NCBI GenBank assembly: GCA_018710985.1
Contig: DVIV01000011.1
Location: forward strand, 1 to 64,000
DNA: 64,000 bases
Direction of reading: 5' to 3'
DNA from: Candidatus Limiplasma pullicola
Lineage (GTDB): Bacteria; Bacillota; Clostridia; Christensenellales; Aristaeellaceae
The translations under genes were made by a program, and so were the position numbers. Shown here piece by piece: positions 987 to 63,894 of this stretch. The notes under the pieces are model-generated. The model was not told the DNA's origin. It saw only the letters and a program-made list of their open reading frames with translations, and did no database searches. Each line of letters begins with the position of its first letter. Position 1 is the first letter of the stretch.

Positions 987-1244
987 TCACGCCCGGCCCA
1001 GCCCCGGCGCGGCGGGCGCGCATGCCGCGCGCGCCGGGCGGCAGGCCCGCATCAGCCGCGCGGCCGTGCCGAGCGTGCCCTTGAGCAGCCGCTTTGCGCG
1101 GCGCTTTCCGGGGTGGCGGATCTTCACGCGCCACGGCGTTTTCGGCCAGCGGAACGGTTCCCCCGGCACGGGGAAGGTGTCGTGCAGGTTGCCCTCCCGG
1201 TCCACCCGCAGGCCCCAGCCCATATATCCGCAGAATCTCTTCAT
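987..1244 (-). CDS. Small basic hypothetical protein
   Basis: An 85-residue protein beginning MKRFCGYMGWGLRVDREGNLHDTF... is preceded by a convincing ribosome site (AAAGGAGAAC, about 4 nt before ATG). The N-terminal half is proline/tryptophan-rich (PVPGEPFRWPKTPWRVKIRHPGKRR). The tail is Ala/Arg-rich with three cysteines and may be low-complexity. It lies 70 bp downstream of the phospholipase D gene on the same strand and is probably co-transcribed. I do not recognise a family. No signal peptide or membrane helix is visible. The ribosome site and operon position support a real gene; the Ala/Arg tail weakens it. Confidence 0.5.
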   Translation of the reverse strand: MKRFCGYMGWGLRVDREGNLHDTFPVPGEPFRWPKTPWRVKIRHPGKRRAKRLLKGTLGTAARLMRACRPARAACAPAAPGLGRA

Positions 1245-1314
1245 GGCGTTCTCCTTTCCGGCGGCCCGAAGCCGCGTTTTTCTCCGCCCCCACCGGGGCT
1301 TTTCTTCCTCCGCG

Positions 1315-50738: not shown

Positions 50739-51391
50739 GCCGCTTTCTGCCTGCGCTGCTGTTTCCGCAGGAGGCGTCCTGTCACCTGTGCGGGCGGTCG
50801 ACGGCGCGCGCAGGCGCCCTCCTGTGCCCTGCGTGCGCGGCGGCGCTTCGGTCCCGTCGCATCCCGGCGCGCGACGCCTTCACCCTGCACGAGCCGCTGG
50901 TTGCCTGCATTTCGGCCTATTTTCATGACAGCGAGGCCCGCGCTCTGTGCCACCTGCTCAAATTCCGCTGGGACGCGGCGGCCGCGCTGCCGCTGGCCGA
51001 CGGCATGGCCGAGGCGCTCGCCCTGTCCGGCCTGGCGGATGGGCCGGACGGCGCGGTCCCGGTGCCGCTCCATCCCCTGCGCCTGCGGGAACGCGGCTAC
51101 AATCAGGCCGGGCTGCTCGCCCGCGCCCTGTGCGGGCGTACAGGGCTTCCCCTGTGGGAAGACGCGCTGGCGCGCACCCGTTACAGCGCATCCCAGCTTA
51201 CCCGAATCCGCGAGGAACGCCTCACCGCCCTGAGCGGCGCCTTTGAGGCGGACGGCGCGCAGGTGGCCGGGAAGCGCGTCCTGCTGGTGGACGACGTGCT
51301 CACCACCGGCGCCACCGCCGTCTCCTGCGCGAAAGCGCTGCTGAACGCCGGGGCTGCGAGCGTGTGTCTGCTCACGGCCTGCCGCGCGTAG
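50735..51391 (+). CDS. comF: ComF family phosphoribosyltransferase-like protein
   Basis: 218 residues. The N-terminal zinc finger CHLCGRS...CPAC is followed by LLKFRWDAAAALPLA. PVPLHPLRLRERGYNQAGLLAR and the PRTase PRPP loop VLLVDDVLTTGAT are also present. This is the family of ComF/GntX, linked to DNA uptake and single-strand handling. The GTG start overlaps the recD2 stop (GTGA), so the two are translationally coupled; a start 10 codons earlier is possible. No other competence genes are in the window. Confidence 0.88.
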   Translation: MSRFLPALLFPQEASCHLCGRSTARAGALLCPACAAALRSRRIPARDAFTLHEPLVACISAYFHDSEARALCHLLKFRWDAAAALPLADGMAEALALSGLADGPDGAVPVPLHPLRLRERGYNQAGLLARALCGRTGLPLWEDALARTRYSASQLTRIREERLTALSGAFEADGAQVAGKRVLLVDDVLTTGATAVSCAKALLNAGAASVCLLTACRA

Positions 51392-59416: not shown

Positions 59417-61054
59417 CTACCACAGCAGGCGGTTGTCGCGGCGGTCCGATTCCACCGAGGAGGCCAGGTTATCCGCATGGTCGGCGATGCGCTCCAGGTT
59501 GTTGAGCATATCCAGATAGAGCATGCCGTTTCTCGGCGTGCACTTTTTGTTTTTCACACGGTCAACGTGGTGGTCCGCCAGGCTTTCGCACAGCTTGTCC
59601 ACCTGGCTTTCCAGCTCGATCACCTCGCCTATGATCTCAACGTCGGTGATCTGCCGCCTTACGATATGAATGCTCTTGTCCAGCATGCTGGTCACGATGC
59701 CGCTGAGCTCCTCGATCTCGCGCTCGGCCTTGCCGGAGAAGCGCAGCTTCTCCTTCTTGCGCGCCGAGCCGATCTCCACAATGTTCATGCTGTGGTCGCC
59801 GATGCGCTCCAGATCGTTGACCACGTGAAACAGCGAACCCACCAGCCGGATGTCCTCGCCCCGCAGGTTGAGGCCCTTGAGCTCGATCAGGTTCTGGGTG
59901 ATTTCGGCGTTGAGGAAGTCGATCACCTGCTCGCGGTTGTCAAACTCATCCACGGCCAGGTCCTTGGGCGCAAAGTAATACTGCATGGCGAAGCGGTAGT
60001 TGGCGGTCACGATGTCCGCCATGCGCTGCACCTCGCGGAACAGCTGCTGCACCGCCACCGGCGGCGTGGAAAACAGGCGTGCGTCGAAGTATTCCAGGCG
60101 CATGGGCTCCTGCTGCTTGTCCTCCCCGCGTACCACCAGGTACGCCAGCTTTTCCAGAAGGCTGCTGAGCGGCAGCAGAAGAAGCGTCGTCACCACGTTG
60201 AAGATGATGTGCGCGAAAGCGATTTGCAGCCGCAGGTTCTCCCCCGCCAGCGCTTCAATCCACGAGGCCAGCGGCAATGCGAGCGCCAGAACGATGAAGA
60301 TGGCCGCGCCGATCACGTTGAAGAGCAGGTGCACCACCGCGGCGCGCTTGGCCGTGCGGTTGGCGCCCACGCTGGCCAGCAGCGCCGTCACACAGGTGCC
60401 GATGTTCTGGCCAAAGAGGATGAACAGCGACGCCTGCAGGCTGATCGCGCCCGTCGCCGCCAAGGCCTGCAGAATGCCCACGCTGGCCGAGCTGCTCTGC
60501 AAAAGCGCCGTGACCCCCGCGCCCACCAGTACGCCCACAAACGGGTTCTTGGCCAGCTCCATCATGTCGCGGAAACCCTGCCAGTCGCGCAGCGGCTCCA
60601 TGGCGGCGGTCATGGCGTCCATGCCCACAAACAAAATGCCCAGTCCCATCATGATCTGCCCAAACAGCTTGAAACTGGACCGGGTGCCCGCCAGCTGGCA
60701 AATCGCACCCACGGCGGTAAACAGAACGCCGAAATTCAGTTTGACCGACAGCATCAGGGAGGTCACGGTGGTGCCGATGTTGGCGCCCATGATCACCCCG
60801 ATGGCCTTGCTCAGGGACAAAAGCCCCGCATTGACGAAGCCCACCACCATCACCGTGGTGGCGCTGGAGGACTGAATCACCGCCGTTACCAGCAGGCCCA
60901 CCAGCACAGCCGTCAGCTTGTTGCGGGTGAGGGCCTCCAGCAGGCGCTTCATTTTGCTGCCGGCCGCCTGCTCCAGGCCGTCGCCCATCGTCTTGATGCC
61001 GAACAAAAACAGTCCCAGGCCGCCCAGCAATGATAAAACCGTCATCACATCCAT
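59417..61054 (-). CDS. Na+/phosphate cotransporter family protein with PhoU-like domain
   Basis: 545 residues. Two Na/Pi-cotransporter repeats each carry the QSSSA signature: AVIQSSSATTVMVVGFVNAG near residue 60, and ALLQSSSASVGILQALAATG near 190. A cytoplasmic PhoU-like helical domain (about 340-540) follows, with VVNDLERIGDHSMNIVE and LNNLERIADHADNLA. It imports phosphate, or regulates its flux, with sodium. Start MDVMTV with AGGAGG. Its end meets the orphan ABC ATPase gene with only 7 bp between stops. Confidence 0.93.
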   Translation of the reverse strand: MDVMTVLSLLGGLGLFLFGIKTMGDGLEQAAGSKMKRLLEALTRNKLTAVLVGLLVTAVIQSSSATTVMVVGFVNAGLLSLSKAIGVIMGANIGTTVTSLMLSVKLNFGVLFTAVGAICQLAGTRSSFKLFGQIMMGLGILFVGMDAMTAAMEPLRDWQGFRDMMELAKNPFVGVLVGAGVTALLQSSSASVGILQALAATGAISLQASLFILFGQNIGTCVTALLASVGANRTAKRAAVVHLLFNVIGAAIFIVLALALPLASWIEALAGENLRLQIAFAHIIFNVVTTLLLLPLSSLLEKLAYLVVRGEDKQQEPMRLEYFDARLFSTPPVAVQQLFREVQRMADIVTANYRFAMQYYFAPKDLAVDEFDNREQVIDFLNAEITQNLIELKGLNLRGEDIRLVGSLFHVVNDLERIGDHSMNIVEIGSARKKEKLRFSGKAEREIEELSGIVTSMLDKSIHIVRRQITDVEIIGEVIELESQVDKLCESLADHHVDRVKNKKCTPRNGMLYLDMLNNLERIADHADNLASSVESDRRDNRLLW

Positions 61055-61125
61055 GCGCAAACTTCCTCCTGTGCACGCTCCCTTTGGCATGCATTCCGAT
61101 TCTCTCCCATTTTACTACGTCCTAC

Positions 61126-61227: not shown

Positions 61228-61256
61228 TTGTTTTTTTGGAAAATACGGGCTATAAT
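61228..61256 (+). promoter_or_regulatory. Promoter of the structured RNA/zinc-ribbon transcript
   Basis: -35 TTGTTT, 17-bp spacer, -10 TATAAT. The predicted start, 7 nt on, is 61263, the first base of the closing helix of the RNA. Confidence 0.8.
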
Positions 61257-61262
61257 GTGGAC

Positions 61263-61475
61263 GTTGCATCCGGGTCTGTGGTTGCAAGCCGATGCCAGAC
61301 GCGGGCAAAACGGTCCACGTAAGCCGGGCAAAGCCCCGGTGAGCATGGCGCGTTCTAGGTGTAAGACCGACCGCCGCCCAGGCGGCGAGAGAAGGCGAGT
61401 AGGGCGCGGAAGCGATGAGCAGACCTTCCCGTCGGCGAGTGTGGGGTCAAAGACCAGGTCAGCCGGATGCACAAC
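61263..61475 (+). ncRNA. Structured RNA (long leader) upstream of the zf-trcl gene
   Basis: About 213 nt without coding potential. The 5' end GTTGCATCCGG (61263-61273) pairs with CCGGATGCACAAC (61463-61475), closing the whole RNA. Inside are helices GTCTG/CAGAC (61274-61278, 61296-61300) and CCGGG/CCCGG (61324-61328, 61335-61339). CGCCG/CGGCG (61372-61376, 61383-61387) and GGTC-AAA-GACC (61445-61455) follow. The linkers are purine-rich. A ribosome site GGAGG follows at 61487, outside the structure. Size, closing helix and clostridial context resemble large RNAs such as the raiA motif, but I cannot confirm a family. It may be a separate sRNA or a leader. Confidence 0.65.
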
Positions 61476-61501
61476 ATCATTGGATCGGAGGATACCCTAT
61501 C

Positions 61502-61780
61502 ATGTACCAAGACAAGACGCTGGTTTGCCGTGACTGCGGCGCTGAATTCGTGTTTACCGCCGGCGAGCAGGAGTTCTACGCCGAGAAGGGCTTCCAAAAC
61601 GAGCCCACCCGCTGCAAGGAATGCCGTGCGGCCCGCAAGGCGAACCGCGCTTCCGCTCCTCGCGAGATGTACGAGACGACCTGTGCCGCCTGCGGCGCGC
61701 CCACGACCGTCCCCTTCATCCCCAAGAGCGACCGCCCCATCTACTGCAGCGAGTGCTTCGCCGCTCACCGTCAGGCCTGA
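61502..61780 (+). CDS. zf-trcl zinc-ribbon protein
   Basis: 92 residues containing two zinc sites. The N-terminal probable-zinc-ribbon motif is TLVCRDCGAEFVFTAGEQEFYAEKGFQNEPTRCKECR, the zf-trcl signature, and a second CxxC pair is TTCAACGAP...IYCSECF. Proteins of this type are short, probably nucleic-acid-binding, and often co-occur with cold-shock-like proteins. Function unproven. ATG with GGAGG 10 nt upstream, 26 nt after the structured RNA. Ends with a strong terminator, so RNA and gene form a single unit. Confidence 0.85.
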   Translation: MYQDKTLVCRDCGAEFVFTAGEQEFYAEKGFQNEPTRCKECRAARKANRASAPREMYETTCAACGAPTTVPFIPKSDRPIYCSECFAAHRQA

Positions 61781-61790
61781 TCGGGGTCAG

Positions 61791-61833
61791 AAAACAGACG
61801 AACCCGCGTATGATACGCGGGTTCGTCTGTTTT
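61791..61833. terminator. Terminator between the zinc-ribbon and BlaR1 genes
   Basis: 20-bp perfect stem (61791-61810 with 61814-61833), then TTT; serves convergent genes. Confidence 0.9.
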
Positions 61834-61862
61834 TTCGTCTGCCCCGGCGCGCCCGGAGCTCT

Positions 61863-63416
61863 TCAGCCGGCCGATTCGTTGAGATAATACAGCACGCGGG
61901 CTGCGGGCTCCACCTGCAGCGTCAGCTGGTACGCCGGGCTTCCGTCCGCATCCCTCATCGCCACATCCACCAGGCGCACATTCCCTGCGCGGACGTCCGC
62001 CGTCGCTCCGGCGCTGTCCCATTCGGCCCCCGGCACCAGCGCATCCATAAACGCCTGAATGTACCGGTCCACGCTGTCGGTCAGGGTCCGGTGCGTATAG
62101 GACGTGTCCGTGAAGGACAGGCCGTTCAGGGCGCGGGTGCCGTCGTATTCCAGCACATAGCCCTCCCTGGAAAACCGCATGACAATCGGCAGCGAATCCA
62201 GCGAGAGGCGGGCCTCCACGCGCCATTCCCCGTCCACCAGCGCGGCGGTAAAGGCGTAGCGGTCGGTGTCCTCCAGAACGAAGGCGCTTTCAAAAAAGCG
62301 CTTGGCGCATGCGATGGCCGCGTCCCCGTCCTCCAGAGGCGAGGCGGACGCCGTCCAGGACACCTCCGGCACCTCCGCCACGGTGGGCAAAGGCTCGCTT
62401 TCGCTGGTGGCAAATGAAACCAGCAGTACGGCCGCCGCCGCAAAGGAGCCCAGGGCGATGGCCCAGCGGTTCCCCCGCACGCAGCGGATCACGGCGGTCA
62501 CGCGCTTTCTCAGATGCCTGCCGGTGAGCGTGGTGCCGGTAGCATGCACGCAGGCCGCGTTTCCGCCCCGGTCGGAGCCGCTTACGATGCTGTTGGCATA
62601 GGCCAGGCGGTCAATGTCCTGCAGCCTGGCGGTCACGCGGTCGTCGCAGGCCATTTCGCCGTCCACGCGGCTGAGGCGCGCGCCCAGCCACACCAGGGGA
62701 TTGAACCAGTGCAGCGCCACGCAGCAGTTGCGCACGATGCTCCACAGCGGATCATGCGCGCGCCGGTGGCACAGCTCATGCGCCAGCACCAGCGACAAAT
62801 GCTCCGGCGCGGTGTCCAGCGGGACGGCGATAAAGGGATGTACCACCCCGATCAGGCACGCGGAGGGGATGCGGTCCACAAAATACACGGGTACGGGCTT
62901 GACCCGGTAGCGCTGGCACAGCGCTTCCAGCATGGCCTGCTCATCGCCTTCCAGGGTACGCACGCGGTCGCGCTGCACCCGTGCCCGGAAGCGCACGTTA
63001 TGCCACGCCATCACGCCGCCCAGAATCAGCGCCACGCACAGCCAGCCCAGCAGAATCCACTTTCCGGCCTCGCCGCTGCTGGTATGCTGGGCCAGCGCCT
63101 CCAGGGCGCCGCCTTCCGCGCCGTCCAGCAGGCTGGAGGCGCTGTAGCTGGCGTCAATCACGCGCTGACGCACCTGGTCCGCCACGGGGCGGGCGGCCAC
63201 GTCCACGGAAAAGCCGGGACGGAATTCATCCATCGCCGGGTTGGGCAGGGAAAGCGGCAGCAGCAGGCGCAGCGCCACCAGCAGCCAGGCCACATAGATG
63301 GCGCGGCTGCCCAGCCGCTCGCGCAGGAGCGCGCGCACGGCGATCACCAGCAGAATCATCACGCTGCCGATAACGGTGGCTTCCAGCAGATAGTTGAAAA
63401 CGGTCATGCTCCGCAT
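61863..63416 (-). CDS. BlaR1/MecR1-type M56 metallopeptidase sensor
   Basis: 517 residues. Helices at about 12-30, 40-58 and 120-138 are followed by a cytoplasmic zinc-protease domain with HELCH (H213, H217) and DGEMACDD (E254). A fourth helix lies at 318-336. The C-terminal extracellular domain (about 340-517) is not a penicillin-binding sensor; it lacks SxxK/KTG and has repeats of beta strands such as WRVEARLSLDSLPIVMRF. Signal transduction by cleaving BlaI is expected, but the inducer is probably not a beta-lactam. Start MRSM with AAGGGAGG. It is 61 bp downstream of blaI. Confidence 0.88.
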   Translation of the reverse strand: MRSMTVFNYLLEATVIGSVMILLVIAVRALLRERLGSRAIYVAWLLVALRLLLPLSLPNPAMDEFRPGFSVDVAARPVADQVRQRVIDASYSASSLLDGAEGGALEALAQHTSSGEAGKWILLGWLCVALILGGVMAWHNVRFRARVQRDRVRTLEGDEQAMLEALCQRYRVKPVPVYFVDRIPSACLIGVVHPFIAVPLDTAPEHLSLVLAHELCHRRAHDPLWSIVRNCCVALHWFNPLVWLGARLSRVDGEMACDDRVTARLQDIDRLAYANSIVSGSDRGGNAACVHATGTTLTGRHLRKRVTAVIRCVRGNRWAIALGSFAAAAVLLVSFATSESEPLPTVAEVPEVSWTASASPLEDGDAAIACAKRFFESAFVLEDTDRYAFTAALVDGEWRVEARLSLDSLPIVMRFSREGYVLEYDGTRALNGLSFTDTSYTHRTLTDSVDRYIQAFMDALVPGAEWDSAGATADVRAGNVRLVDVAMRDADGSPAYQLTLQVEPAARVLYYLNESAG

Positions 63417-63477
63417 GGGGGGATAGCCTCCCTTCAGAGGACGCATTTGTAAAAACCGATCTATATATGTTAGACGC

Positions 63478-63894
63478 TCAGGAAGGATCGTTTGGTTCCA
63501 CTTTCCTGTTTTTTTTCTGTTTTTCCGCACGGTTGATGATATTCTGAAGCTCCCGCAGCTCCTCATCATCCAGCTCGCCCTGTTCCACCATATCGTTGAC
63601 CAGCAGCGAGGCCCGTCCCGAAAACAGCCGCTTGAGAAGCGTCTGCGTCTGTTCGCGCGCCACCCGGTCCTTGCTGACAGCCGGGAAATACGTCTTCACC
63701 GGTCCGTCCTCGCAGATGCGCACAGTTCCCTTCACGGCCATGCGCTTGAGCATGGTGATGACCGTATGCTTGCTCCAGCCCGTATCCTCAGCCAGAGCGC
63801 GGGTCAGCTCCATCATGGTCCACGGGCTTTTTTCCCACAGAAGCAGCATGATCTTCCATTCCGCCTCCGTCAAGGCCACATGATCGCGGTTCAC
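63478..63894 (-). CDS. blaI: BlaI/MecI-family repressor
   Basis: 138-residue winged-helix repressor: LTEAEWKIMLLLWEKSPWTMMELTRALAEDTGWSKHTVITMLKRM is the family DNA-binding domain. VREQTQTLLKRLFSGRASLLVNDMVE belongs to the dimerisation domain, where the BlaR protease cuts characterised homologues. GTG start with AAGGAGG 7 nt upstream. Likely autoregulates through the operator at 63927-63940. First gene of the blaI-blaR1 operon; no beta-lactamase gene is in the window. Confidence 0.93.
   Translation of the reverse strand: MNRDHVALTEAEWKIMLLLWEKSPWTMMELTRALAEDTGWSKHTVITMLKRMAVKGTVRICEDGPVKTYFPAVSKDRVAREQTQTLLKRLFSGRASLLVNDMVEQGELDDEELRELQNIINRAEKQKKNRKVEPNDPS

Follow-up and report, generated by a model that had tools for sequence, protein, structure and literature searches.

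Riboswitch leaders are structured RNAs that lie upstream of one gene at a short and constant spacing. The raiA/ModT RNA is an abundant, widespread and elaborate bacterial RNA for which cryo-EM structures are available and no biochemical activity is known. ModT is described as abundant and stable and as complementing in trans in C. difficile and C. acetobutylicum, with two C. difficile isoforms of 215 and 260 nt that end at two termination sites; the same source gives comFC (74%) and raiA (66%) as the published neighbours of the RNA, a synteny that its authors do not regard as a good indicator of function (PMC11706538). Periplasmic-binding proteins are also named as neighbours (PMC11477304), and in published accounts the downstream neighbour of the C. 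difficile RNA is a PTS operon. Transcriptome work lists raiA among five families in which riboswitch-mediated termination is clearly evidenced, at 12 loci (PMC12121620), and 4,875 raiA sequences have been gathered at a looser cut-off (PMC12286853).

The raiA RNA and its local transcription unit

The window analyzed here is a stretch of 64,000 nucleotides from Candidatus Limiplasma pullicola (contig DVIV01000011.1, forward strand). A cmscan search of the whole window matched positions 61265-61471 of the plus strand to Rfam family RF03072 (raiA/ModT RNA) across the complete model (1-209 of 209) with 177.2 bits (E 5.4e-45), far above the gathering cut-off of 101.3 bits, and no second RF03072 match was found in the source genome assembly (66 contigs, 95% complete). 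On this comparison, assignment of the RNA to the raiA/ModT class is near certain. The original prediction, which had itself proposed a cmscan against Rfam, had left the choice between a class already known, for instance the raiA motif, and a new class tied to zf-trcl (zf_Tbcl) genes. It is the former that the full-model match bears out. The gene neighbourhood alone speaks for a new class specific to zf-trcl genes, against which stand both the full-length match and the presence of the raiA fold and sequence core in the window; with the same fold recovered in relatives, we regard this reading as ruled out for practical purposes. The elements of the locus are as follows.

61228..61233, plus strand: weak -35-like hexamer TTGTTT, 17 nt before the -10 box, identified by eye
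61251..61256, plus strand: -10 box TATAAT of the RNA promoter
61265..61471, plus strand: raiA/ModT RNA (RF03072), full length, from cmscan
61487..61491, plus strand: ribosome-binding site GGAGG of the zf gene, outside the RNA, read in the sequence
61502..61780, plus strand: zf_Tbcl gene, 92 aa, four CxxC (PF13451 and PF23477/TIGR04272)
61794..61836, plus strand: strong intrinsic terminator downstream of the zf gene, a 17-pair stem with TTTTTT behind it

When the longer ORF 61415-61780 was scanned, the zf_Tbcl domains scored above their curated cut-offs (PF13451, 92.8 bits against 24; PF23477, 68.2 against 27; TIGR04272, 68.3 against 36), and a search for solved structural relatives of the protein returned none that was significant (best E 0.13). 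The ribosome site lies outside the closed structure, as had been predicted, with the ATG at 61502. Because the flanking long ORFs (59417-61090, 557 aa, and 61863-63569) are both on the minus strand, the RNA and the zf gene stand alone, and no terminator was detected between them in the window. The terminator downstream of the gene is absent from the list of a simpler scan. The genome holds a second zf_Tbcl gene (L032, G000:C18:34676-34816), which is not behind a raiA RNA. The common neighbours of raiA RNA, comFC upstream and raiA downstream, are not adjacent in the window and are not defining for the class; the hpf/raiA gene of this genome is on another contig. About 10 kb away, 50780-51385 on the plus strand gives a ComF-like phosphoribosyltransferase match (TIGR00201, 94.1 bits against a cut-off of 233.55), which is weak given that TIGR00201 also matches in 14 of 14 control genomes.

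The TATAAT ends 8 nt before the RNA, with a predicted start at about 61263, the base of the closing helix. A good promoter with a start at 61263 had been claimed beforehand; the -10 box does place the start near there, but the -35 element is poor and a generic promoter scan of the window did not list the 61228-61256 site. Across 90 zf-type loci in relatives (distinct RNAs with at least 140 nt of upstream sequence), a TATAAT with at most one mismatch ends 2-16 nt before the RNA in 80 and is perfect in 70, compared with 46 and 0, respectively, of 360 control windows placed farther upstream. Judged from these sequences, conservation of the -10 box in relatives is real.

The locus resembles the riboswitch leaders in placement and spacing and differs from them in having no visible expression platform. 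Set against RF03072 raiA/ModT RNAs, it is alike over the whole model, in P1, P3, pk-1 and P4-P8 pairing and in the -10 box right before the 5' end. It differs in that zf_Tbcl is found downstream rather than raiA or the C. difficile PTS operon, in that the upstream ORF is on the other strand, and in that no terminator was found directly after the RNA. C. difficile ModT, as described in PMC11706538, shares the RNA class and a sigma-A-type promoter at the 5' end, whereas it has two termination sites where the present locus shows no terminator ahead of the zf gene.

Fold and covariation

Pairing was counted cell by cell in an alignment of 33 full-length raiA RNAs comprising the window's own and those of relatives, on which all counts in this section are based. 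The helices P1, P3a/P3b, pk-1, P4, P5 and P6-P8 were derived from the account of the cryo-EM structure in the text of PMC11751092 and are located in the window as follows.

61265..61283, plus strand: P1 5' strand (TGCATCCGG, CTG, TGGTT)
61288..61314, plus strand: P3a (61288-61291 with 61311-61314) and P3b (61294-61296 with 61304-61306)
61297..61303, plus strand: pk-1, P3-loop half, pairs with 61349-61355
61315..61318, plus strand: P4 5' strand CCAC, pairs with 61441-61444
61324..61339, plus strand: P5 hairpin
61349..61355, plus strand: pk-1, pk-loop half
61367..61435, plus strand: P6-P8 domain (P6 61367-61371 with 61431-61435, P7 61372-61387, P8 61391-61428)
61441..61444, plus strand: P4 3' strand GTGG
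61452..61471, plus strand: P1 3' strand

The closing helix comprises nine contiguous pairs, 61265-61273 with 61463-61471 (TGCATCCGG/CCGGATGCA), and extends inward through CTG/CAG and then TGGTT/GACCA. Covariation of this helix had been suggested as a check, and 10 of the 12 pairs of the outer closing helix in the Rfam structure are changed on both sides, with 90.2% of cells paired; the inner five pairs of P1 show no two-sided changes. Of the 11-nt closing arm originally drawn from 61263, the nine contiguous pairs from 61265 stand. The outermost two, 61263-61264, do not: they form only across a bulge, and just 50% of cells pair there, so that the conserved closing helix begins at 61265.

Taken as a whole from the cmscan alignment, the Rfam structure is paired in 83.5% of cells. 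The cryo-EM-type helices together with pk-1 reach 94.3%, a gain that is due partly to a one-base shift of P5 and the omission of the two outer pairs, and their covariation is 0.366 compared with 0.045-0.091 for slid partners. Two-sided changes occur in 32 of the 59 pairs of this fold (pk-2 lies outside the count), a result reached by none of 500 shuffles. All five P5 pairs show such changes, with 99.4% of cells paired, as do three of the seven pk-1 pairs, with 89.6% paired and the outermost pair an A-C in the window. P3a and P3b are paired in 100% of cells, P3a having one pair with CG/UA covariation. P4 and P3b fit the fold yet provide no covariation test because both are invariant in the 33 RNAs. 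In the window's own sequence, P1, P3a/P3b, pk-1, P4 and P5 consist of standard pairs with one exception. The further internal helices that had been anticipated are present: the window's sequence can form P3-P8 and pk-1, and covariation among relatives is seen for most helices.

The argument from folding energy failed, in that 61263-61510 does not stand out from its shuffled versions in minimum free energy (z -0.65; equalled in 43 of 200 shuffles); with so small a z, the support for the RNA is the family match and the covariation, not stability. We also note that the structure line of RF03072 draws the halves of pk-1 (agccGcg/cgCggcu) as an ordinary helix and is without the P3a/P3b and P4 pairs as derived from the cryo-EM text, pairs that are kept in 100% of cells.

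The zf_Tbcl neighbourhood and a reduced raiA RNA

All matches in 60 relatives, 398 genomes of the phylum and 200 of the order gave 140 raiA loci, two partial fragments from genome G032 being left out; the sampling is confined to the window's phylum, and searches covering more than 40 genomes used stricter filters, at which some weak matches are lost. A zf_Tbcl gene (PF13451) is next downstream on the same strand at 93 of the 140 loci (92 distinct RNAs), an arrangement found in 19 of 30 families by group code. The tie to zf-trcl genes that had been foreseen is therefore present, but as a gene neighbourhood of the raiA RNA. The gap between RNA and gene is 28-55 nt with a median of 35; the value of 55 (L068) arises from the choice of a later in-frame ATG, and the next largest is 53. 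At 45 of the other loci there is no zf_Tbcl gene in the fetched downstream stretch, which for one of them (L045) is only 432 nt long, and two loci are at contig ends.

Terminators were defined by a perfect stem of at least six pairs including four G-C, a loop of 3-9 and at least six T in eight. By this rule the gap contains an intrinsic terminator at none of the 93 loci, although only about 50-77 nt could be scanned there, as against 125 nt behind the gene; downstream of the zf gene, 68 of the 93 have one inside the first 120 nt. From this distribution, RNA and gene appear to be transcribed together as a single unit. Of 22 zf-less loci, 5 gave a terminator no farther than 250 nt from the RNA.

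Downstream proteins were scanned at 18 of the 45 zf-less loci (20 proteins, three of them without a family). The genes behind the RNA encode cold-shock protein, RaiA/HPF and solute-binding proteins and, as single cases, HAD, DUF218, PfkB and thioesterase proteins. A cold-shock gene follows the RNA at L033, L035, L054 and L061 and a RaiA/HPF gene at L034, L035, L036, L059 and L061; at these loci, it is RNA- or ribosome-related genes that occupy the place of zf_Tbcl.

In a tree of 144 zf proteins, 93 behind a raiA RNA and 51 not, the state of being behind the RNA changes 8 times, compared with at least 35 in 200 label shuffles. As the proteins are short and the RNA-less set is the top of the match list, we take this clustering to reflect old common inheritance rather than independent gains. 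Co-occurrence gave no signal: zf_Tbcl is present in 265 of all 398 genomes and in 35 of the 47 that bear the RNA, and a general presence/absence link was dismissed. The two are adjacent in 28 of the 47 RNA-bearing genomes of this 398-genome phylum sample. We also rejected the idea that raiA-linked zf proteins are more basic, and hence more RNA-binding, as the median net charge is 2 both for the 83 behind full raiA and for the 51 without the RNA; it is 4 for the 10 behind the reduced form described next, and the corresponding figures for the zf linker are 3, 4 and 5.

The reduced form, mini-raiA, is 117-129 nt long and is represented by 16 distinct sequences. It is without P6-P8 and consists of P1, P3a, P3b, pk-1 of at least four pairs, P4 and a small hairpin, and the start of a zf gene follows directly in all 16 sequences.

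L065-L067, L069-L075, L147, L150-L152, L154-L156, L242: mini-raiA before zf_Tbcl

Ten mini-raiA RNAs, from two families, are weak RF03072 matches of 42-59 bits, all below the cut-off, and a pattern scan of one genome per species (84,980 species), whose exact pattern misses variants, found 13 mini-raiA loci. The carriers are Thermosediminibacter, Tepidanaerobacter, Fervidicola, Thermovorax and related or unplaced Bacillota MAGs. Within the carriers' class, the mini model matches 22 of 26 genomes, leaving four without. Nineteen of these matches (114-138 bits) are mini-raiA, every one followed by a zf gene; the other three (44-50 bits; G333, G379 and G632) match only part of what are full-length raiA RNAs, which likewise have a zf gene behind them. 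That one class has full-length copies before the same gene, including one (L244) whose closing helix is nearly as in mini-raiA, suggests from the sequences compared that mini-raiA is a derived form. In the single-contig genome G096, the RF03072 search with stricter filters found only mini-raiA.

Covariation within the mini-raiA set is almost nil (one pair, with a single clade-wide change), and for this reason its structure is supported chiefly by homology with full-length raiA. Its pk-1 is unevenly aligned (72.5% of cells), yet at least GCCG/CGGC is possible in all 16 sequences. Interpreting the mini helix UCCC/GGGG as a pseudoknot proved wrong; by cryo-EM numbering it is P4. The short form may sit unremarked in published raiA sets such as the one that PMC12286853 describes.

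A search with default filters for diverged mini-raiA before 55 zf loci that do not adjoin an RF03072 match returned only L131, weakly (E 0.031), and when 20 such loci were scanned against Rfam, the six weak matches included no raiA and seemingly none placed before the zf gene. At L131/L160 (G138; 1207-1281, minus strand, in L131) the closing helix GGCATTCTAA/TTAGGAATGCC is kept before the zf gene and the raiA core is gone; these are of the same family as mini-raiA and possibly an end stage of the reduction. By eye, the leaders before the zf genes of L112 (G337) and L123 (G383) are strongly diverged and raiA-like (CTTGTTCAGACCTGTGGTCGAAAGCC... in L112), and both were missed by Rfam and by the mini model. 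At L093 (G094), the leader before the zf gene retains AAAACCAGGTCGGCTAAGCAA, the 3' end of raiA, as well as a closing helix (TTGCTTAG/CTAAGCAA); it is otherwise unlike raiA and matched in neither the mini model search nor the Rfam scan. Inspection by eye further showed that several zf_Tbcl genes without raiA RNA have a TATAAT-like box some 70-150 nt ahead of the start codon, leaving room for a leader. Alike leaders form the groups L097/L098, L129/L135/L138, L101/L121 and L111/L120/L126/L133, which are possibly other structured leaders.

Possible roles of the raiA-zf_Tbcl pair

We lean towards a reading in which raiA is a trans-acting noncoding RNA cut from a transcript that it shares with the zf_Tbcl gene. 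A housekeeping-type promoter would start transcription near 61263, at the base of the closing helix, and transcription would probably run through zf_Tbcl (61502-61780) to the terminator at 61794-61836. The RNA would fold into the compact raiA core, be set free when the shared transcript is processed within the 30 nt that follow the closing helix, and act in trans as a stable housekeeping-type RNA; the remainder of the transcript would be translated into the zinc-finger protein. Because no terminator was found before the zf gene, a free RNA would need to be cut from the transcript, presumably in this gap, and the same finding suggests that the RNA is here at least transcribed as a leader. The fixed neighbourhood suggests in turn that the zf protein acts together with the RNA or takes part in the process that the RNA serves. 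We infer the read-through, the processing, the action in trans at this locus and the partnership with the protein. What favours an independent RNA is trans complementation in C. acetobutylicum and C. difficile, as described for ModT, which also argues against a purely cis role (PMC11706538). Counting against the reading are the 45 of 140 loci that are zf-less, the missing co-occurrence of zf_Tbcl and the RNA, zf proteins that are not more basic, and the listing of raiA among the families with riboswitch-mediated termination (PMC12121620).

The absent gap terminator and the near-constant spacing would equally fit a cis-acting leader, in which the raiA fold senses a ligand or the zf protein and so sets how well the zf_Tbcl mRNA is translated or how stable it is. 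Such a role would account for the shared strand, the 28-55 nt spacing, the 0 of 93 gap terminators and the retention of the shortened mini-raiA in its place before the same gene. No expression platform was seen, however, with the gap free of terminators and the ribosome site outside the closed helix, and inspection by eye for pairing of the ribosome site gave one candidate, with the P3/P4 region in one mini-raiA family, which is not kept in the other; together with the trans complementation reported elsewhere, these points leave a cis-acting leader rather unlikely. We would also be somewhat surprised if the zf gene were simply a housekeeping neighbour, expressed from the strong raiA promoter but functionally unconnected to the RNA. 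The variety of genes that raiA RNA precedes elsewhere (cold-shock, RaiA/HPF, solute-binding, HAD, DUF218, PfkB and thioesterase) is what such a neighbour would predict, as are the missing co-occurrence signal and the frequency of zf_Tbcl without raiA (265 of 398 genomes, compared with 47 of 398 with the RNA), but the adjacency is kept in 19 of 30 families and even where the RNA is cut to 117-129 nt. The three readings overlap, as the trans-acting RNA from a shared transcript does not require an RNA-protein partnership.

A further proposal we put forward only tentatively: the zf_Tbcl protein could be a dedicated partner or regulated product of the raiA/ModT RNA, the two forming a unit inherited together across much of the phylum, and the RNA of Thermosediminibacter and Tepidanaerobacter could have been cut to the minimal core that is needed (P1, P3, pk-1, P4 and a short P5). 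The link between zf_Tbcl and raiA RNA was not found in the papers searched and may be unreported, although the neighbour tables of Soares 2024 PNAS and Weinberg 2017 NAR may list it. For the raiA/ModT family, zf_Tbcl offers a concrete candidate partner that follows the RNA by 28-55 nt, with no intervening terminator found, at 93 of the 140 loci and in 19 of the 30 families sampled, and mini-raiA, which occurs in cultured organisms (Thermosediminibacter litoriperuensis, Fervidicola ferrireducens and Thermovorax subterraneus), shows which part of the raiA fold is dispensable, namely P6-P8.
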